Assembly (NCBI GenBank): GCA_031310005.1
Contig: CM062380.1
Location: 372,001-436,000 of the forward strand
Direction: 5' to 3'
DNA from: Dactylellina haptotyla
Lineage: Eukaryota > Ascomycota > Orbiliomycetes > Orbiliales > Orbiliaceae
DNA length: 64,000 bases
Both the position numbers and the translations under genes were made by a program. Every line of letters starts with the position of its first letter. Within the stretch, counting starts at the first letter, position 1. A model generated the notes under the pieces. The model worked only from the letters and a program-made list of their open reading frames with translations, was not told the DNA's origin and ran no database searches. Positions 34,084 through 60,403 of the stretch are shown piece by piece.

Positions 34084-34218
34084 GCGTCTGTAGTGTAACG
34101 GTTATCATCATTGCCTGTAAGTTGCAAAACTACAATAAATACACCACAGCAGACCTCAGTTCTAACTCGAATCCTCTAGTCCAAGCAATAGACCCGGGTT
34201 CGACTCCCGGCGGACGCA
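34084..34218 (+). tRNA. tRNA-Gly(UCC) interrupted by a GT-AG insert, copy 1
   Basis: Exons 34084-34116 (33 nt) and 34180-34218 (39 nt) join to a 72-nt tRNA. Acceptor stem GCGTCTG/CGGACGC pairs fully with one G-U; discriminator A; D-arm TAGTGTAACGGTTATC; anticodon stem ATTGC/GCAAT; loop CTTCCAA with anticodon TCC; T-stem CCGGG/CCCGG with loop TTCGACT. The D-arm and anticodon loop match yeast tRNA-Gly(UCC) closely, as I recall that sequence. The insert lies between nucleotides 33 and 34, not at 37/38 where eukaryotic tRNA introns sit. A and B boxes are intact and a T5 run follows at 34231-34235, so Pol III transcription is expected. The junction is unique: only this cut restores a 7-nt loop CTTCCAA. 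A canonical 37/38 cut would give anticodon GUA (Tyr), but the body lacks the C1-G72 pair of eukaryotic tRNA-Tyr. Confidence 0.82.
34117..34179 (+). other. Spliceosomal-like intron in tRNA-Gly copy 1 (63 nt)
   Basis: Begins GTAAGT, has TTCTAAC with the CTAAC at 34162-34166, and ends CTCTAG; the putative branch A is 14 nt before the end. These signals equal those of protein-gene introns in this window. The insert contains no GG dinucleotide, so it cannot form the Watson-Crick pairing with the UCC anticodon that canonical tRNA introns use. The mechanism of removal is unknown. Confidence 0.7.
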
Positions 34219-34230
34219 AATCCGCCTCTC

Positions 34231-34235
34231 TTTTT
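34231..34235 (+). terminator. Pol III terminator of tRNA-Gly copy 1
   Basis: T5 run 12 bases after the tRNA 3' end. Confidence 0.7.
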
Positions 34236-34423
34236 CGATAACTCGTCTTTGTGTCTCCTTTTGTTCCGCCGTGATTATAATCCATTATTCCTTTCAGTTA
34301 CTCTTTTGGCCCAGATTAGAAGCTATAATTTGGCGCAGATCTTGACTGTTTTCTTGTAACCAATTCTGGTTGGGAACCATGACTTCGAATGAACCAAAAT
34401 TCTGGCGAGGTCCCATCCAAGAA

Positions 34424-34555
34424 GCGTCTGTAGTGTAACGGTTATCATCATTGCCTGTAAGTTCCAAACTACAAAAAATGCATTAAATAGACGCCAGTTC
34501 TAACATCGTTCCTTAGTCCAAGCAATAGACCCGGGTTCGACTCCCGGCGGACGCA
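34424..34555 (+). tRNA. tRNA-Gly(UCC) interrupted by a GT-AG insert, copy 2
   Basis: Exons 34424-34456 and 34517-34555 are identical in sequence to the exons of copy 1, 340 bases upstream, and fold to the same 72-nt tRNA-Gly(UCC). The insert again lies exactly between nucleotides 33 and 34. The 5' flanks of the two genes are not alike, so the duplication is not recent or was limited to the gene. Identity of the 72 exon bases beside diverged inserts suggests selection on the tRNA body. A T4 run follows at 34568-34571. Confidence 0.82.
34457..34516 (+). other. Spliceosomal-like intron in tRNA-Gly copy 2 (60 nt)
   Basis: Begins GTAAGT, has CAGTTCTAAC with the CTAAC at 34500-34504, and ends CCTTAG; putative branch A is 13 nt before the end. 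It differs from the copy 1 insert in the middle and by three bases in length, but keeps donor, branch site and acceptor. It also lacks any GG dinucleotide. Confidence 0.7.
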
Positions 34556-34567
34556 GTCCGCCTTCAA

Positions 34568-34571
34568 TTTT
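34568..34571 (+). terminator. Pol III terminator of tRNA-Gly copy 2
   Basis: T4 run 12 bases after the tRNA 3' end; minimal for Pol III. Confidence 0.55.
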
Positions 34572-36961: not shown

Positions 36962-38386
36962 CTACATACTTTTCAAATCATCTTCTGTAACCCCTATGAG
37001 CCGAAGACCTTTCCAGTTAGGTACTCCGCTCGTTTCGCCCGAACCCCCTTTGTCATCAATTTGGAACGATACAACTTCCATAAGATTTCTTTGATAGTGA
37101 TCTGGATAGTCAGACTCCAACACAAACAGTACATCTTCCAACAATGGTAACCCATCTTGTACCCAATTATCAACCTGCATTCGTAGATGGTCGGTTATGT
37201 TCTCAATTATGTAATGACTCTGGTACGGTACCATGATATCTTTCAACTTCCCTAGTTCAAGCAAGTCCGCGTAGAATTCTCCGAGTAGGTCAGGTTTCAC
37301 GCGGTCGAGATCGCCATCCGCTATTAAAACTTTCATCGACTCCACATTGGGGAAGCGCAATGTCAACTCTCTGAATAGTATCGGTACCATGAGACCCGGG
37401 CCGAAATATAACTCTTTGACATTCGGGAAAACCGTATGCGGGAACGGAAATAAAATAGGTTCTTCGAGTGTTGCCTCTTCTACTAACCGTTCCACGTTAT
37501 CTATCTCACAAAATAGCACTACTTTCCTTAAGGATTCTGAAGCGCTTTGGATCAATAATAGCGGGTTGAATCGGTGTGAATGTGAGAATGAACCAGGTCC
37601 CATTATGTCGATTTCAATCTCCCCTAGTGCCGAAGGATAAATGGATTTGCTGATCGTCTCGGACGACTGCTGCTCAAGTTCTCCACATTTACAGCTCTCC
37701 GATGTCTGGGTCCCGCTTACTTCTTCATGACTACTTTGTCCTCGGGCGTCTGTTCCAACAGACCAGTCAAGAAATTGTGTGTCGTTTTCGGACATGATCT
37801 CATATGGACAGAATACGTCCTTCATATACAGTCCATGGTATTCGTAGGAGTGTGAGTTATCGATGTACGAAAAGTGAAGTGCCTTAATAAGTGGCGTTAC
37901 TACCAGGGGCGTGGAATCACCGGGATCCCTCGCATCACCAGGAGTATATCCTGATATTGTTCTGAAAAATCCATGGAATAGTTTCGAGTCGAAATCGGTA
38001 AGGTGCGCTTTGGGATATTTAACTTCTAGGCTCTCGTAAAGCACGAGCAGACTGTCGAGTCGAGGGAACGACTTTAACCCCGCGCTGCATTCGCGATAGT
38101 ATCTTACCGTTTCCCCGATTTCCTCTGCAGGCGTGGAGTATTGGATCCAGTTCTTGGTGCTCGTGTCAAAACTGACATGTCGAACAACATCCTTTATGTG
38201 GGAAAGACTGCCGCCGTCCGCAAACGCCTTGGGTGTATCGCATGAAATATAGATGGCGCGAAAGATGATTGGCACGGAATATTCGCGCCAGAATTTCGAG
38301 CAAAGCGAAAGCGAGAGAACATCTTTGAAAGGAAGGTAAGTGACGATTTCGTGGGCGAGTTCTGGTGGAAGCGAGTTCAAGTTCAT
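36962..38386 (-). CDS. F-box protein, LPxEL family member 1
   Basis: Intronless, 474 residues. F-box at residues 5-45: LPPELAHEIVTYLPFKDVL, then LSLCSKFWREYSVPIIFRAI. Downstream it shares landmarks with four other genes here: LRFPNVESMKV, LKDIMVPYQSHY, and NWVQDGLPLLEDVLFVLES. These positions and spacings define one paralog family with 39755-41176, 55262-56752, 57418-58599 and 58964-60403. F-box proteins link Skp1-Cul1 ubiquitin ligases to substrates; the variable C-terminal part would choose the substrate, which is unknown. The start ATG is the first in the frame and lies five residues before the F-box. The gene is convergent with the class-III aminotransferase gene, the two coding regions ending 154 bases apart. 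Confidence 0.75.
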   Translation of the reverse strand: MNLNSLPPELAHEIVTYLPFKDVLSLSLCSKFWREYSVPIIFRAIYISCDTPKAFADGGSLSHIKDVVRHVSFDTSTKNWIQYSTPAEEIGETVRYYRECSAGLKSFPRLDSLLVLYESLEVKYPKAHLTDFDSKLFHGFFRTISGYTPGDARDPGDSTPLVVTPLIKALHFSYIDNSHSYEYHGLYMKDVFCPYEIMSENDTQFLDWSVGTDARGQSSHEEVSGTQTSESCKCGELEQQSSETISKSIYPSALGEIEIDIMGPGSFSHSHRFNPLLLIQSASESLRKVVLFCEIDNVERLVEEATLEEPILFPFPHTVFPNVKELYFGPGLMVPILFRELTLRFPNVESMKVLIADGDLDRVKPDLLGEFYADLLELGKLKDIMVPYQSHYIIENITDHLRMQVDNWVQDGLPLLEDVLFVLESDYPDHYQRNLMEVVSFQIDDKGGSGETSGVPNWKGLRLIGVTEDDLKSM

Positions 38387-39754: not shown

Positions 39755-41176
39755 CTATGCGTAAAGAAGTTCCTCAATTGACTTCCCAGATACCTTCGCA
39801 GTATTTATATCATAGTCTGTGATTCCAAGTCTCTTTACGGTGTAAGATAAAGCCTCTATGTGCCTCAGCGGCTTTATGAACACATCCACCGGCTCTTCTG
39901 ATTTTCGACTCCTCCAAAATAGCACTCTTGAGAGATATTTCAACCTGCCTCTTGCTACCCAATCGGCAACAATCTGGTCGGTTGTTTCCTGGCTCAGATA
40001 TTCTCCTTTGAACCTCTTACCTCTCGTCTGGCGTTTCCTTACCGGAATCGCTATTCTTTTAAGTTTCTTCATTTCTGGCAGAAAGCTATAGGCCGATCCT
40101 TCAAACCCCTTATGTGAATGAAAACGGTATGGTTGCCGGTGAACTGTGAGGTTTTCAACGTTGGGGAAGCGTAACGCGAACTCGGAAAAGAACTTAGGGC
40201 GCATGTAGTCATAAGACAAGGAAAGAGTCGTCACACCGTGGTACGTACTTGTGAGACCAGACAGCGCCTCAAGCTGTTTATTCGATTTATCTGGGATATA
40301 GGAGGGATCATCGGGGTCCATTCTGTGTATAATATAGAAGCTCTTCAAAGATTGACTTGAGGATCGCATCGTAGATAAGAGAGTTATAGGGTTTACTGAT
40401 AGGTAGCCGTCGCCACCACTAAGATCGAGGGTGAAATCTTCGAGGGCCGGTGGACACGGTACTGGGGCATTTGCCCTAACTGCTTCAATACTGGGAGCTA
40501 AGAAAGCCCTATCCGTCGCTTCTGGAACCCACTCTTCAAATCCTGTAGGCGTCCATTTGAATTGCTCCCATACACCACCAACCCAAAGCAATTTTATGTG
40601 AAAACTCCGGAGTTGGTTATGGAAGAATGGGAAAGTTGAAAGATTTGACATGATGAGATGGAAGAGAGCATGGTCGAATTCATATATAGTGTCAGGTCCC
40701 AGGGGCAATCTGCGGAGGTGGGCTTTGTGATACACAAAAGAGTATACTTTTATGCTGGTTATATTTGGGAATCGAGCTAGTACGTCAAAACAGTCACGGT
40801 AGAAACGGATCCTTTTTGCGTGATTGATAGTGCGGCAGTAAAGAACCAGCCTTCTGACGCTCGTGCAGAGACCGCGCAGATTTCCACCGGGCCCAAAGGC
40901 ATCACATTCCAAGCAGGCGGGTTCCAGTCTCAGTGTACGAAATAGGAAGGGGAGAACCAAGTCCCGGCATTGCTTTGAGCATCGAGAGAAGTTCGCGAGA
41001 TCGCTCGGATCTGAGAATGAGAAGATGGAGGCCACTAACTCAGGGGGCAGCCGAAAGATCTGACCGATGTCCATTTGGTACATGATGTCCTCAGTCTCGG
41101 CTGGATCCTGGCTAGCCGTAGCTGTCGGACTGACTGCAGGACTAGCTGCAGGACTAGGCTCCCCGTGTAGAGACAT
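39755..41176 (-). CDS. F-box protein, LPxEL family member 2
   Basis: Intronless, 473 residues. A Ser/Ala/Pro-rich N-terminal extension of about 35 residues precedes the F-box: IFRLPPELVASIFSFSDPSD, then FSRCSKQCRDLVLPFLFRTL. Shared family landmarks are LRFPNVENLTVHRQ, MKKLKRIAIPVRKR and DWVARGRLKYLSRVLFWRS. The C-terminus has KPLRHIEALSYTVKRLG and ends SIEELLYA. It is in tandem with member 1 on the same strand. Substrate unknown; SCF adaptor role from the F-box only. The ATG is near a TATA-like element on the minus strand. Confidence 0.75.
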   Translation of the reverse strand: MSLHGEPSPAASPAVSPTATASQDPAETEDIMYQMDIGQIFRLPPELVASIFSFSDPSDLANFSRCSKQCRDLVLPFLFRTLRLEPACLECDAFGPGGNLRGLCTSVRRLVLYCRTINHAKRIRFYRDCFDVLARFPNITSIKVYSFVYHKAHLRRLPLGPDTIYEFDHALFHLIMSNLSTFPFFHNQLRSFHIKLLWVGGVWEQFKWTPTGFEEWVPEATDRAFLAPSIEAVRANAPVPCPPALEDFTLDLSGGDGYLSVNPITLLSTMRSSSQSLKSFYIIHRMDPDDPSYIPDKSNKQLEALSGLTSTYHGVTTLSLSYDYMRPKFFSEFALRFPNVENLTVHRQPYRFHSHKGFEGSAYSFLPEMKKLKRIAIPVRKRQTRGKRFKGEYLSQETTDQIVADWVARGRLKYLSRVLFWRSRKSEEPVDVFIKPLRHIEALSYTVKRLGITDYDINTAKVSGKSIEELLYA

Positions 41177-53967: not shown

Positions 53968-55261
53968 ACGGCCGGACGAAGGAAATTAAAAAAAAGCCGG
54001 AAAATTTAAATAAACAAATTATTATCGAAAGCGAGAGGAAGAGATCTGCTTTCGAAGTAGGAAGCTCCCATCCTACTAACTTTTTGTATTGCTCACAAAG
54101 ATATTTTCTTTCTGCTCTATGCGTGATTATTTTAAACGTTGCCTCTGCCTGTCCTATCTATTCATTTTTTTTTTCTTTTTCAACTCCGCTTCTTCTTCGA
54201 TATTGTTCTATATGTCATTGTAAAAGAAGAGGAGTGGAAACAGAGGAAATGGGATTTGGATATGGTTTGGGACGATGATGCCACAGGAACGGGAAAGTGT
54301 ATATTTAAAGCAGCAAAAATTATAACTTTGGAGGAATTGGTGTCCTTTTTTTTCTACTATTATGATTATATTCCACGAATACTGCGGCTGGTAGCTTTAA
54401 ACCGTGAGGATTGAAATGAAGTGAAGCCAACTGAACCGAGCTATCGATCGATCGATTGGAGACGGCGGTTCGCCTTGAGGCCTAAACATAGCGCGGTGGC
54501 TGCGGTCATAAAGCCACATAAGGCCGCCCCAACGCAGAACTAGCGAGCTGATGAATAGCAAGTCGGAGCTTCTGAGACAAGAGGCTTGAGGGTTTGTATC
54601 TAATCACGATCTCTGACACAATCCCGTAAGAATCCTCTCGGTTCGACGACGGCGTAATTCAGCAATTTATGGTAAGAATTACGTGCGCCGCTCTCCAGTT
54701 AATTATCTAAACAGGATATACATCGAATCTACGAGGCAGACCGAAGGAGCAACACGGCAGCCCCCACGGTAGTTGCGAGTACTCTTTGGGTAGCTGTTGG
54801 ATGCTCCCGTGCTCTTGGCGGCATAGCTAACGTTAGCTAGCTTCCCGCCGGGAGCCTCGTGGACCGACGAGAACACCCCTGGCTAAGGAACCGGTCCAGG
54901 CAATTCGCTCGCTCGCGGTCGTCGAGCCACGGCTGGAGCTATATATAACCACATTTGACAGCCGTCTAATCTTTACGATTTCGCCATTGGTTTTAAAAAT
55001 TCTCGTATTTCACCCCTCCCGAGGTCTCGTCTCCCTAGTTGTAATAGCTTCAGATATACATACTTTACGCATATAACTAAGTTCGACTCCGCATCTCTAT
55101 TGCCTCGAGTATTGTCGAGTATACGTATACCCCCGTTCACAGAGGCGAGCTCGGTCCGGCGGCTCCCCACACACCCACGAAATCGATCTAAAACCTACCG
55201 CTCATCTGCATTTACTAAATTAATTGCGGGTATTTATTTACTTATTCATTTATATACAATA
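53968..55261. other. Intergenic region, GFA1 3' end and F-box promoter
   Basis: AT-rich GFA1 3' region up to about 54400, then a mixed stretch with a short ATCG repeat (54443-54456) and the promoter of the F-box gene. No gene recognised. Confidence 0.6.
54940..54948 (+). promoter_or_regulatory. TATA box of F-box gene at 55262
   Basis: TATATATAA about 310 bases upstream of the ATG. Confidence 0.45.
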
Positions 55262-56752
55262 ATGGCAGCCGAACCATCCACCGTCCCCCCGCTGCCCACC
55301 GAACTCCTCCTTTCAATACTCTCCTACCTCCCCTTCCACGACATCAGAACCTTCTCAACATGTTCCAAGGCCTTCCGCTCCACGAGTCTCGCGCTCGTCT
55401 TCCGCAATTTGAAATTCTCCCACTCCGCGTCGACGTCGATAGCCGACATCCGGCGCACTTTCGAAGACCCCGAGCACGGTAGCCTCCACCACATTTGCGG
55501 CCAGGTGCGGCACGTGACGCTGCACAGTCATAATATAAAGGGCCTAGAGGAGATCGTAACGTACTTCCGCACCCGGGTGGCGCTGTTGCCGCTGTTTCCG
55601 GGTCTGACGAGTTTAATGATCACCCGGGCCGGGTTGTACCCGCACATGCTGGGATGGCTGGAAGGGTTCGATGACAGTATTGTCTCTGCGATCTGGAGGA
55701 TGTTAGAGGAGGCATGGCCGGGGCGTCACACTTTACTGAGAAAAGTGGCGTTCAAAACTCTCGATTACGTCCATCAGGATCGTTTGAGGGGGCAGGAATT
55801 GTCGGTTGAGAGTTTGAGGTTTCTAGGATGGGATGGGTATTACGAAAATCAGAAGAGGCAGCGGGCCGGTAAAGCCAGTAGTAGTATCACAGCGGACGGG
55901 TACGGAGATAGGAACCGCGGGGAGGATGAGGATGATGATTACGAGGAGCGGGATGAGGTGGAGGAAACCGGGGCGAACAAGCACGCCATCGGGTTGGGAG
56001 ATATATATCCTTGTCCCGCGCCGATTGAAGAGGCATACATCAATCGAGATTATGTCACCTCTCGCCAGAGGATCATCGAACGACCGATTCCAGATCTGTT
56101 GTACCTGGCTAACTGCCGGCAGAGTCTGAAGACCGTCGGGATCTGGATCAATACCTTCAACGGGAATATGACGCCACAATGGGCGGCTACGCCTGCAGAG
56201 GATTACCTGGCCTTCAATAACGTGAGGGATCTGAGGATAAATATGGGCTTTTTCATGCAAAGTTTCCCGGAACAGTATCTTGACGAACTGGCGCGGCGGT
56301 TTCCGAAGGTGGAGAAGGTGGTTATCTATCATGACTACAGATGTCACGAGTATATCGAGGGAGAGAGGATGTATAGATACGGCAGCCTGATGAAACTGTG
56401 GCCCAAAACGTTGAGAGAAGCGAGGTTACCCTGGTTGACGTATTTTGGGAGCAGCTATGAGACGAGGAGCATGGGGGCTACGATTAACGTCTGGATTGAC
56501 GAGCATAGTTTGGACAAGCTGAAGAGGGTAGTGTTTGTTAGGGAGATCGTGCAGGAGGAGAGTGGGTTTGATATGCCGGACGAACTCGAGGCTATCGGGT
56601 GCGATGTCGTCATCGAAGGGGAGGATGAAGGACGGTGGGGGGATGAGGTTCGGGACGAATACAAGTTGAGGTCTTCGGATAGAAAGTTGGTTTGGGGAGG
56701 GCTGTATAGAATACCCCAGCTGGAGCTGGATGGATATGTTGTGCCTGGATAG
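55262..56752 (+). CDS. F-box protein, LPxEL family member 3
   Basis: Intronless, 496 residues from the ATG at 55262; the frame is open further upstream, but the F-box starts 11 residues after this ATG and an upstream extension would carry odd basic sequence. F-box: LPTELLLSILSYLPFHDIR, then FSTCSKAFRSTSLALVFRNL. An acidic insert (about residues 220-240, RGEDEDDDYEERDEVEE) is unique to this copy. Shared landmarks: ARRFPKVEKVVIYHD, TLREARLPWLTYF and WIDEHSLDKLKRVVFVRE. First of three tandem copies on the plus strand. Predicted SCF adaptor with unknown substrate. Confidence 0.75.
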   Translation: MAAEPSTVPPLPTELLLSILSYLPFHDIRTFSTCSKAFRSTSLALVFRNLKFSHSASTSIADIRRTFEDPEHGSLHHICGQVRHVTLHSHNIKGLEEIVTYFRTRVALLPLFPGLTSLMITRAGLYPHMLGWLEGFDDSIVSAIWRMLEEAWPGRHTLLRKVAFKTLDYVHQDRLRGQELSVESLRFLGWDGYYENQKRQRAGKASSSITADGYGDRNRGEDEDDDYEERDEVEETGANKHAIGLGDIYPCPAPIEEAYINRDYVTSRQRIIERPIPDLLYLANCRQSLKTVGIWINTFNGNMTPQWAATPAEDYLAFNNVRDLRINMGFFMQSFPEQYLDELARRFPKVEKVVIYHDYRCHEYIEGERMYRYGSLMKLWPKTLREARLPWLTYFGSSYETRSMGATINVWIDEHSLDKLKRVVFVREIVQEESGFDMPDELEAIGCDVVIEGEDEGRWGDEVRDEYKLRSSDRKLVWGGLYRIPQLELDGYVVPG

Positions 56753-57417: not shown

Positions 57418-58599
57418 ATGGCGAGCTTTGAGCTCCTCCCCACCGAAATCACGCTTTCCATCTTTTCCTATCTGGACCATGCCGATATCGCGGCTTTTTC
57501 ATTATGTTCGAAAGCATGCCGTGATAGATCTTTATTGGTGTTGTTCCGCGCGCTGAAATTCCCCACGGACGTCCAGATCCTGCTCCCACTATTGGAGAAA
57601 CTAGAAGATCCCCGCCATGATTCTTCACTTCTATTCGGTGGTGGATTTTCTGATATCCGAGAAAGCGTCAGACATATAACGATGGATAGTAGCGGGTTTT
57701 CTAAAGTGCCAGATACAATCTCGTATTTTTATACTTGCTCGAGATTTCTTCGCGTGTTCCCTAAATGCGCCAAGCTCAAGATTAGATATAAAGATCTAGC
57801 GCGGTCTTCTATAATATCTACGGTTAGGCGACTTGACTTCTGTCTCTTCTACGCAATATGTTTGGCTGTATCTTTGGCGTGGCCGTCGACATTTCAAAAT
57901 CTGAGAGCCTTGTATCTGGAGATTGTTCCTTGGATCCCGACGGACGAAGACGATAATGGATCGGGCAGTGGCAATGCGTCCGAGCCAGTCGCAGAAGGAA
58001 GTAGTGCTCCAAACCAGCCGGTAGCGCCAATCTCAAATGAACAAAAGCAAGCGTTGGATTTCTCTCCTAAGCTTGATAGTATCTCGGAATGGGCCATGTC
58101 CGTCGAGGTACCCTCAAATCCTGACTCCGAAGCAGAATTCGAATCACCATTCGAAAGGCCGGTGTTCGAAAATCTCAAATCACTGATCCTGAGTACGAGC
58201 TTCGCATTCAACTCGGTAGCCAGCCACCGCATTGAATTTATCAAGCTCTTCCCGGCTGTAGAAGCCATATCGATATCCTATCTTCAACGGGAAGCGCAGC
58301 ATTTCTTCATAAACGAGGATACCGCCATACCGCTTCTTCACAAAATGGAGGGACTGAAGAGGATCACAATATATGTGTATTATGGGCCTTTTGCGCAGGA
58401 GATGAAGCGGTATAAGGATACAAAATTTATCGAGGAGTGGGTCAAAGGGGGGCTTAAAAAGCTGGAGCAGGTAATGTTTGTGCATACGCATCGAGAGGCC
58501 GAGGGAATAGAAGTACGAGGGATGGAAGCTGCTGTTTGTAAAGTTGTTGCTGAAGACGGGCGATCGTGGTGTGAATGGGGCGAAGTTTATAAGCTGTAA
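57418..58599 (+). CDS. F-box protein, LPxEL family member 4
   Basis: Intronless, 393 residues, the shortest of the five copies. F-box: LLPTEITLSIFSYLDHADIAA, then FSLCSKACRDRSLLVLFRAL. The middle has a low-complexity linker with DEDDNGSGSGN. Landmarks: KLFPAVEAISISY, MEGLKRITIYVYYG, EWVKGGLKKLEQVMFVHTH. The C-terminal part after the last landmark is brief (ends WCEWGEVYKL). SCF adaptor by the F-box; the target is unknown. Confidence 0.75.
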   Translation: MASFELLPTEITLSIFSYLDHADIAAFSLCSKACRDRSLLVLFRALKFPTDVQILLPLLEKLEDPRHDSSLLFGGGFSDIRESVRHITMDSSGFSKVPDTISYFYTCSRFLRVFPKCAKLKIRYKDLARSSIISTVRRLDFCLFYAICLAVSLAWPSTFQNLRALYLEIVPWIPTDEDDNGSGSGNASEPVAEGSSAPNQPVAPISNEQKQALDFSPKLDSISEWAMSVEVPSNPDSEAEFESPFERPVFENLKSLILSTSFAFNSVASHRIEFIKLFPAVEAISISYLQREAQHFFINEDTAIPLLHKMEGLKRITIYVYYGPFAQEMKRYKDTKFIEEWVKGGLKKLEQVMFVHTHREAEGIEVRGMEAAVCKVVAEDGRSWCEWGEVYKL

Positions 58600-58963
58600 G
58601 GGTTTTTGTATACCAATTTAATTGCAATATTAGTATTATAGAGCGGAAGTAATTTGAATACGCGCTGTGAATGAAGTATATTTTTACAGCACGTTAAGTT
58701 TAGTACAGTGACACTTTGTTGACGTCTTCGAAGATTAACTTGAAATCTATGCTTAAAAATGTATTGTATATATGAATTTAACAGCGGCGGTACATGTCTG
58801 AATGTAGAACTTTTATCTGTCTTTCGTTGGACGTAATTGCTTGTTTGTTCGAGAGGTTTTTATGTCAGACCATTCATAGTTGGACTTGCGCCTATTTAAA
58901 TCCAACATTTCACGAAAGTCAACCAGTCATCTAGTAACATTTATATCGAAGCATCAGGACCTT
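58600..58963. other. Intergenic region between F-box genes
   Basis: AT-rich, 364 bases, no gene. The next gene's frame is open from 58880 but lacks an ATG until 58964. Confidence 0.6.
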
Positions 58964-60403
58964 ATGGAGTCTCCACCATCGTCAATCCAAATGGCTAGGT
59001 TTTCTTGGGGAAACTTGCTACCGACGGAGCTAAACCTTCAGATACTATCGCATCTGGACCACGCAGACCTCATATCGTTCTCGGAAGTTTCGACGGCATG
59101 CGCCCATATAGCGGCACCGCTGCTGTTTCGACGTATTGTCCTATCACCCAGTCGCTGGAAGGGGGAAGCCCCGCCGGTCCAAGATTGTCCGGTTGAGTAC
59201 CAAGTTCTGCTGGCTTCGTTCCAAAACGCAAACAGCAGGCTGTATAAACTCAACACGCGAGTCACACATATCACATTATCGACCGCACCACCCGATGAGG
59301 AGAACGAAATCGAGAAATACCTCGAAGATTGCGCGGCCGAGCTTATCGCAGGCACCTTTCCTAACCTTGAAGGTCTAAAGATTAAATATGCTACCAACGA
59401 TGCGGAGATTATTCATCGCGTCCCAAACTTCTGCGAGCGGATGTTCAAAGATTTCTTCACATCGTTATCAAATGCTCCGGGGAAACCGTTGAAACGGCTA
59501 GCTTTAGAGGTCGTAAAGCCGTATCCCGGTCGTGGCCACGGAATCTATAATTCCATTGAACTTATCAGATCTCTCAGGGGCATCGACCCGGACAAGTTCG
59601 CTTCCGTCGGGTCCTTGACGGCCGTGAACCAGACGCTTGGTGAACCCTCAAAGAAATCCAAATACCTTTCTTGCTTAGAAGAAGGTTCCATCATCGCCTT
59701 CACGAGGGACTGCCGGAATGGGGAGTTCAATCCCATGTCTATTTTCAAGCTTTCAGCAGGGACGCTGACCAAGTTTACGATTAATATACAGCCGTGGTTC
59801 CTTCTCAGCAAAATGTTTGAGGATTACGATGGCTCCGAGGGGTGGGCTCTAGGGAGGAAATCAACGAGACCTCGGTTGCGGGATGAGCCCACCGTCTTCC
59901 CTCTAGTGAAAGAGCTAAACGCCAACTTTGACTTTCTCAACTTTCTGACCCATCACGACGTAGACGAGTTTTACGATTTGGGTGAAGTGTTTCCCAACGT
60001 CGAGGACTTGACAATATTCTGGGCGGACAGGAGAGAATTCCAGCAAAGACAATATGGGTACTTTCATGAGGTCATCAAGATGAAGAGTCTGAGGAGGATC
60101 CGGGTTCCATGGTTCGATAGAGATACCTGGCTGGATCCAGAGGCCGGCAGCGTAGAAGGTACAGCGACGCTGGCAAACTTCTATTCAAGGCATTTGAAAG
60201 CTCTTGAAACTGTCAAATTCGTGCGAAGGGGGTCTTCGGTGCCGGCTGGTGCACCGCATTTAGAGGGGAAAGCTCGACCGGATGAGTGCATCGCGGTTGA
60301 TTTCTGTAATATCAAAGCTGGGCCGTATAATCCCTATGATGAAGGGGGGCTTAATAGGCCAGTTCCATACCTGAGTAAGGTATTTGAACTCGATCAGTTC
60401 TAA
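58964..60403 (+). CDS. F-box protein, LPxEL family member 5
   Basis: Intronless, 479 residues from the ATG at 58964; a second ATG at 58991 (MARFSWGN) also precedes the F-box. F-box: NLLPTELNLQILSHLDHADL, then FSEVSTACAHIAAPLLFRRI; the usual CSK is here VST. Landmarks: EVFPNVEDLTIFWADR, MKSLRRIRVPWFDRD and FYSRHLKALETVKFVRRG. It follows member 4 in tandem and shares the LDHADx(I)xxFS string with it, so the two are probably the closest pair. SCF adaptor by inference. Confidence 0.72.
   Translation: MESPPSSIQMARFSWGNLLPTELNLQILSHLDHADLISFSEVSTACAHIAAPLLFRRIVLSPSRWKGEAPPVQDCPVEYQVLLASFQNANSRLYKLNTRVTHITLSTAPPDEENEIEKYLEDCAAELIAGTFPNLEGLKIKYATNDAEIIHRVPNFCERMFKDFFTSLSNAPGKPLKRLALEVVKPYPGRGHGIYNSIELIRSLRGIDPDKFASVGSLTAVNQTLGEPSKKSKYLSCLEEGSIIAFTRDCRNGEFNPMSIFKLSAGTLTKFTINIQPWFLLSKMFEDYDGSEGWALGRKSTRPRLRDEPTVFPLVKELNANFDFLNFLTHHDVDEFYDLGEVFPNVEDLTIFWADRREFQQRQYGYFHEVIKMKSLRRIRVPWFDRDTWLDPEAGSVEGTATLANFYSRHLKALETVKFVRRGSSVPAGAPHLEGKARPDECIAVDFCNIKAGPYNPYDEGGLNRPVPYLSKVFELDQF

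Follow-up and report, generated by a model that had tools for sequence, protein, structure and literature searches.

The tRNA-Gly(UCC) gene pair

The window, i.e. the whole 64,000-nucleotide stretch of D. haptotyla DNA analysed here (C2:372001-436000 of a searched genome of 39.8 Mb in 11 contigs), contained exactly two tRNA matches to Rfam RF00005, at 34084-34218 (48.8 bits) and 34424-34555 (49.1 bits). Both correspond to tRNA-Gly(UCC) genes interrupted between nucleotides 33 and 34, with the following features, the A and B boxes being presumed from their consensus.

34084-34116, forward strand: gene 1 5' exon, nucleotides 1-33 of tRNA-Gly(UCC) (Rfam, ARAGORN; 100% identical to the gene 2 exon)
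34091-34101, forward strand: gene 1 presumed A box, TAGTGTAACGG (sequence, consensus)
34117-34179, forward strand: gene 1 63-nt GT-AG insert at 33/34, mRNA-type (sequence, ARAGORN, enumeration of cuts)
34160-34166, forward strand: gene 1 branch-site-like TTCTAAC, 13 nt from the insert 3' end (sequence)
34180-34218, forward strand: gene 1 3' exon, nucleotide 34 to the discriminator (Rfam, ARAGORN, DNA search)
34197-34207, forward strand: gene 1 presumed B box, GGTTCGACTCC (sequence, consensus)
34231-34235, forward strand: gene 1 TTTTT, candidate Pol III terminator (sequence)
34424-34456, forward strand: gene 2 5' exon of tRNA-Gly(UCC) (Rfam RF00005, ARAGORN, DNA search)
34431-34441, forward strand: gene 2 presumed A box, TAGTGTAACGG (sequence, consensus)
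34457-34516, forward strand: gene 2 60-nt GT-AG insert at 33/34, mRNA-type (sequence, ARAGORN)
34498-34504, forward strand: gene 2 branch-site-like TTCTAAC, 12 nt from the insert 3' end (sequence)
34517-34555, forward strand: gene 2 3' exon (Rfam, ARAGORN, DNA search)
34534-34544, forward strand: gene 2 presumed B box, GGTTCGACTCC (sequence, consensus)
34568-34571, forward strand: gene 2 TTTT, candidate Pol III terminator (sequence)

When run without introns, ARAGORN called no tRNA in the window, including neither Gly gene; when introns of 0-200 nt were allowed, both genes were called as Gly(tcc), with an intron of 63 and 60 nt, respectively, starting from position 34. An earlier, sequence-only reading had described two tRNA-Gly(UCC) bodies cut at 33/34, which was borne out by Rfam and by ARAGORN with introns. 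The splice-like signals that it had reported at the start (GTAAGT), inside (TTCTAAC) and at the end (TAG) of the inserts were also found, with the insert of gene 1 ending in CTAG, 13 nt after the branch C, and that of gene 2 in TTAG, 12 nt after it. Its remark that neither insert contains a GG, so that the anticodon UCC cannot pair with the insert, was right by reading. The statement that all stems pair did not hold, as the D stem of the Gly body includes one non-standard pair in the Rfam alignment, plus a G-U wobble seen by reading.

Eight cuts would leave a 7-nt anticodon loop in gene 1, and the insert runs from GT to AG solely when the cut is placed at 33/34, which restores the loop CTTCCAA with U33 and the anticodon UCC. 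The adjacent cut, which joins CTG to CCAA, also leaves a 7-nt loop with U33 and a glycine anticodon, GCC, the intron then being TA...GT. A cut at 37/38, where the Rfam alignment places its break, leaves a 7-nt loop with U33 and the anticodon GUA; an ordinary 37/38 intron was ruled out for the Gly genes, since it would put a GUA anticodon on a glycine body. The earlier remark that only one cut restores CTTCCAA and runs from GT to AG held for these boundaries, which are unique to 33/34; as for the loop, the neighbouring cut yields a glycine anticodon with U33 as well. Given these GCC and GUA readings, the case for UCC relies on the splice signals together with the failure to find any other Gly(UCC) gene, rather than on the loop by itself. 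In the window (both strands), the pattern GTA...CTAAC or CTAAT, followed by AG after 10-13 nt, fits 8 of the 1,406,614 stretches of 58-68 nt, a count that includes whichever introns fit and that uses a motif defined after the introns were seen.

Search for other tRNA-Gly(UCC) genes

Within the limits of pattern, DNA and ARAGORN searches, which were not exhaustive, there appeared to be no intronless nuclear Gly(UCC) gene; the check for intact copies elsewhere, suggested together with the sequence-only reading, has thus been run, and none was found. Among the best candidates scored, the spliced Gly(UCC) sequence matched the genome solely at the four halves of the two window genes, and the whole Gly gene, queried with a repeat or introner in mind, found itself and its neighbour, with nothing else. 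For Gly(UCC) genes carrying an ordinary 37/38 intron, the spliced-sequence search was the sole one applied.

A first pattern for intronless Gly(UCC) gave 19 matches versus 12 in the reversed control, and a second gave 38 versus 42, three of them shared with the first. ARAGORN called no tRNA at any of the places examined, i.e. 18 of the 19 in the first set (L033-L042 and L079-L086; the remaining place, C6:2130459, has a spacing of 10) and 23 of the 38 in the second (the three shared places and L087-L106; the other 15 have spacings of 10 or 17-20). In a tRNA, a spacing of about 13-14 is expected. A further pattern gave four matches (one in the control), corresponding to the two window genes, L107, where no tRNA was called, and L108, which is tRNA-like and unsplit. 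The mitochondrion has its own Gly(UCC). In nine open reading frames of the window, GGA accounted for 72 of the 276 Gly codons (26%). As expected for a fungal gene, the Gly-like split-gene pattern had no match in viral contigs, and the contigs of prokaryote genomes contained none to 26 bases taken from the 5' exon.

The two odd tRNA-like genes of L108 (C1:6411777 region; 562-636 and 1490-1561 of the locus) lie about 850 bases apart and have unusual anticodon loops; ARAGORN called them Leu and Lys.

Further split tRNA genes in the same genome

At least five more split tRNA genes were identified: two Tyr(GUA) genes and one Ile(AAU) gene interrupted at 52/53, a second Ile(AAU) gene at 45/46 and an Arg(ACG) gene at 57/58. 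In this one fungal genome, at least seven tRNA genes, belonging to four amino-acid families, are thus confirmed to carry mRNA-type introns at four positions (33/34, 45/46, 52/53 and 57/58, according to our own stem numbering).

A tRNA-Tyr pattern gave 13 matches, three Tyr genes among them, and a DNA search returned the same three and no others. One of these (L118) has an ordinary 37/38 intron and reads straight through the 52/53 junction. The other two (L111 and L112) carry, in addition to the 37/38 intron, an insert of 67 and 62 nt, respectively, at 52/53, which begins with GTATGT or GTAAGC, contains CACTAAC and ends in CTAG, and whose excision gives the L118 sequence. Bases 1-83 of the Tyr query were 100% identical in L111 and L112, with the last two of these bases lying within the insert.

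The first Ile(AAU) gene (Ile1) also combines a 37/38 intron with an insert at 52/53, of 68 nt, while the second (Ile2), found with a tRNA query, has a 58-nt insert at 45/46; another Ile gene (L008) is insert-free and resembles the joined Ile2 product. The Arg(ACG) gene, which was found with a 23-tRNA query (43 matches from 40 of the 58 candidates scored), is interrupted within the T loop, at 57/58, by an insert of 63 nt, and its joined sequence is displayed by an intronless paralog (L047). Its location is as follows.

C1:2328170-2328316, reverse strand: split tRNA-Arg(ACG) gene (loci L162 and L163)

We also noticed a 41-base Arg(ACG)-like piece at C6:2456353-2456393, which could be another split gene or a fragment; an intact Arg(ACG) gene lies about 400 bases away.

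An excision screen over 360 kb of genome DNA (duplicates included; Ile2 and the Arg gene left out) considered 799 GT-branch-AG candidates, and the distinct tRNAs spanning a junction were two Gly, two Tyr and one Ile, with nothing more. Thirty loci that entered this screen came from another pattern, which gave 32 matches versus 49 in its control. ARAGORN called a tRNA in all seven spliced products, with L047 standing in for the 5' part of the Arg product, whose own letters were checked later. Its labels, Asn(gtt) for the Tyr products and Thr(agt) for Ile1, arise because it sets the 37/38 intron differently, and our Tyr and Ile names follow the anticodon loop and the paralogs instead. When eight yeast tRNAs of families not yet seen were used as a query, two Phe and three Pro places were found, of which one Phe (L161) and three Pro (L157-L159) have ordinary 37/38 introns by eye; the Ile part of the query led to Ile2. 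A genome-wide Rfam search, with 63 of 1538 candidates scored, gave 62 matches, from which all seven split genes were absent.

Many other nuclear tRNA genes (L066, L067, L072-L074 and others, including Gly(GCC)) have short 37/38 introns, some of them placed by reading.

Signals of the inserts compared with mRNA introns

All seven inserts are 58-68 nt long and have the form GT...CTAAC or CTAAT...AG. They start with GTAAGT (twice), GTATGT, GTAAGC, GTAAGA (twice) or GTAAAT, so that GTA is present in 7/7 and G at position 5 in 6/7; the branch motif, 10-13 nt before the end, is CTAAC in six and CTAAT in one; and the 3' end is TAG in six and CAG in one. A GTRNGT-like 5' end, a CTRAY branch and a terminal AG, as in U2-type introns, are therefore common to all seven. 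The Gly cut is unique, whereas at the other junctions a repeated base or two permits several equivalent cuts, one of which is GT-AG (by eye).

For comparison, 48 mRNA-type introns were collected by joining open reading frames in 323 kb of the same genome, with no protein check and with the branch motif required by construction. This set showed the same kind of signals, with a median length of 71 and a median branch-to-end distance of 13.5; GTAAGT was the commonest of its starts and GTATGT the joint second. TTTT was absent from all seven tRNA inserts but present in 23 of the 48 mRNA-type introns (Fisher test, 0.017 by gene and 0.050 when five families are counted). The tRNA inserts are poor in T, which explains part of this difference: when they were shuffled at their own composition, TTTT was absent in 47% of trials.

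A continuous B-box core, GTTCGANNC, is present in all seven split genes. In Tyr and Ile1, the last G of the intron restores GGTTCGA. In the Arg gene the B box is cut, and a B-box core, GTTCGATTC, lies within the intron, just upstream of its AG, as if replacing the B box that the intron cuts. Both Tyr introns (L111 and L112) have a predicted ATATGC/GCATAT hairpin directly upstream of CACTAAC.

The criteria of canonical TSEN introns did not describe these inserts, all seven of which sit outside 37/38, with the Gly inserts lacking anticodon pairing. None of the seven junctions forms the 4-bp central helix of a BHB motif (best, 2-3 of 4 pairs; shuffled inserts, 19%), and this motif was rejected. 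Lengths of 58-68 nt would probably leave no room for a group I or group II catalytic core, and the Rfam scan of the window at gathering cut-offs returned the two tRNA matches alone.

Signs of selection on the split genes

The exons of the two Gly genes are identical at 72/72 positions, while their introns are identical in 49 of the 64 aligned columns and their flanks at 55/115 (48%) and 59/115 (51%) positions, the mean for the aligned background being 48%. Between L047 and the split Arg gene, just two of 72 positions are changed, C becoming T at 4 and G becoming A at 69; these positions are partners across the intron, so that a C-G pair of the acceptor stem became T-A, a compensatory change. 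Changes on both sides were also observed between Ile2 and L008, at 7-66 and 5-68, and weigh less than the Arg pair, since these two genes differ at further places. The acceptor stem of Ile1 contains one T-T mismatch, and this copy may be weak as a result. The Gly pair and the Tyr pair are related genes and not independent events.

Proposed mode of expression and alternatives

Taken together, these features make it highly probable that the split genes work as Pol III-transcribed tRNA genes and that their precursors contain spliceosomal introns of the ordinary U2 type, and removal by the spliceosome would be by far the best reading of the inserts. We infer that RNA polymerase III would transcribe the genes from the internal A and B boxes, and that the spliceosome would recognise GTAAGT, the TTCTAAC branch site and TAG in the Gly precursors and join nucleotide 33 to 34, giving tRNA-Gly(UCC). 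For the T-arm introns, spliceosomal splicing would precede end trimming and, in Tyr and Ile1, also the removal of the 37/38 intron by TSEN, since an intron that breaks the T arm should have to go before the tRNA folds. The sequence-only reading had left a choice between the spliceosome and an unusual tRNA route; this view gained support, and its spliceosomal form now appears much better supported, owing to the five further genes, the three other positions, the insert-free paralogs, the compensation in Arg and the absence of BHB motifs.

The spliceosome mostly meets Pol II transcripts, and the introns could instead belong to such transcripts, the tRNA lying within a longer capped RNA that would be spliced and then processed by RNase P and RNase Z. 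We consider this unlikely, as the internal boxes are intact or replaced within the intron, TTTT is absent from the introns, and T runs are located just downstream of both Gly genes. Ectopic cleavage by TSEN or a different endonuclease, with an accidental GT-AG appearance, would draw on an enzyme that is presumably present, 37/38 introns being common in this genome, and has a parallel in a nucleomorph with ectopic tRNA introns, many without a defined BHB motif (PMC3978253). It is nonetheless very improbable in view of the GT, branch motif and AG found in 7/7 inserts, the BHB central helix found in 0/7, the lack of a GG for anticodon pairing in the Gly inserts, and the GUA anticodon that a 37/38 cut would give to a glycine body. 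We attach the same small weight to the idea that these are pseudogenes, former tRNA genes into which introns or debris have inserted, and that Gly(UCC) comes from a gene that escaped the search: the search for other copies was limited, the insert-free Tyr, Ile and Arg paralogs could do the work, and Ile1 has its acceptor mismatch, but the Gly exons have remained identical at 72/72 positions while introns and flanks diverged, a compensatory pair spans the Arg intron, both Gly genes retain their A and B boxes and the T runs downstream, and no other Gly(UCC) was found. Least credible of all, with hardly any probability left, is a tRNA-Gly(GCC) made by cutting one base further on or a GUA-anticodon tRNA made by cutting at 37/38, for although either cut leaves a 7-nt loop with U33, neither intron is GT-AG, Gly(GCC) has separate genes with a different body, Tyr(GUA) already has three genes, and Gly(UCC) would be left without any gene found.

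Under the spliceosomal reading, a further class of nuclear tRNA intron would exist, and we think it likely: spliceosomal introns would have entered tRNA genes of this orbiliomycete repeatedly and at varied positions, including a T-loop intron that brings its own B box; some pre-tRNAs would need the spliceosome and then TSEN; and, since every nuclear Gly(UCC) gene found is split, the decoding of GGA, and with it all protein synthesis, would depend on the spliceosome.

Relation to known systems

In textbooks, nuclear tRNA splicing is separate from that of mRNA and takes place at 37/38 through TSEN and a ligase. To our knowledge, U6 is the only precedent for the splicing of a short, uncapped Pol III transcript. 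No report of spliceosomal introns in tRNA genes was found among the open-licence PMC titles and abstracts listed, which is weak evidence of absence. As described in PMC10484740, the fission-yeast U6 snRNA is a Pol III transcript with an mRNA-type intron that is spliced in the cell, and this intron is thought to have arisen by reverse splicing near catalytic nucleotides. The genes reported here resemble it in yielding presumed Pol III transcripts with spliceosomal-type introns; unlike U6, which is itself part of the spliceosome, the hosts are tRNAs, from four families and with four intron positions. In the present genome, two full-length U6 matches, of 109 and 101 nt, look intronless by length (48 candidates scored).

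Ribosomal RNA, for its part, is made by Pol I. Spliceosomal introns in the nuclear rDNA of ascomycetes are indicated by the titles of Bhattacharya 2000 and Cubero 2000, as cited in PMC11889510. Those introns, like the present ones, are of mRNA type and lie in the gene for a non-coding RNA in a filamentous ascomycete, whereas tRNAs are transcribed by Pol III from promoters inside the gene.

The inserts share with canonical 37/38 TSEN introns their presence as intervening sequences in nuclear tRNA genes, and Tyr and Ile1 carry both kinds; they differ from them by their positions, their mRNA splice signals and the absence of a BHB-type helix. According to the review PMC3978253, the eukaryal endonuclease likely co-evolved strictly with 37/38 motifs, with ectopic cases in algae and nucleomorphs, and Crenarchaeota have tRNA introns outside 37/38, including in the T arm and variable arm. 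The earlier statement, which placed all nuclear tRNA introns at 37/38, was consequently too strong in view of the ectopic introns that this source gives for some algae and nucleomorphs. The present inserts are like those of the Guillardia nucleomorph, unicellular algae and Crenarchaeota in lying outside 37/38; unlike those, which are attributed to an endonuclease that cuts BHB motifs or have no defined motif, they combine GT, branch and AG with the absence of a BHB.

If these precursors are spliced as they look, the substrates of the spliceosome would include structured Pol III transcripts from several tRNA families, translation would rely on it directly, and it would become possible to test in what order these tRNAs fold, have their ends trimmed and undergo spliceosomal and TSEN splicing. 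The occurrence of insert-bearing and insert-free paralogs within one genome bears on intron gain. There is also a bearing on tRNA annotation, as the seven split genes were missed by the genome-wide Rfam search (63 of 1538 candidates scored) and the two Gly genes by ARAGORN without introns.

Genome and neighbourhood

The fungus is an orbiliomycete, from a class that includes nematode-trapping fungi, and 149 tRNA genes are given for M. haptotylum (PMC3828140). Among the proteins encoded in the window, an aminopeptidase shares 99% identity with one from Dactylellina haptotyla CBS 200.50, and a GABA aminotransferase shares 94% with one from Orbilia ellipsospora. The mitochondrial contig C11 (249811 bases) has a tRNA-Lys and tRNA-Gly pair near 176 and again near 140884; owing to this repetition, part of a mitogenome of about 140.7 kb may be present in it twice. 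Finally, five open reading frames of the window (36962-38386, 39755-41176, 55100-56752, 57418-58599 and 58880-60403), some of them in a row, appeared F-box-like by eye, with an N-terminal LPPEL or LPTEL motif.
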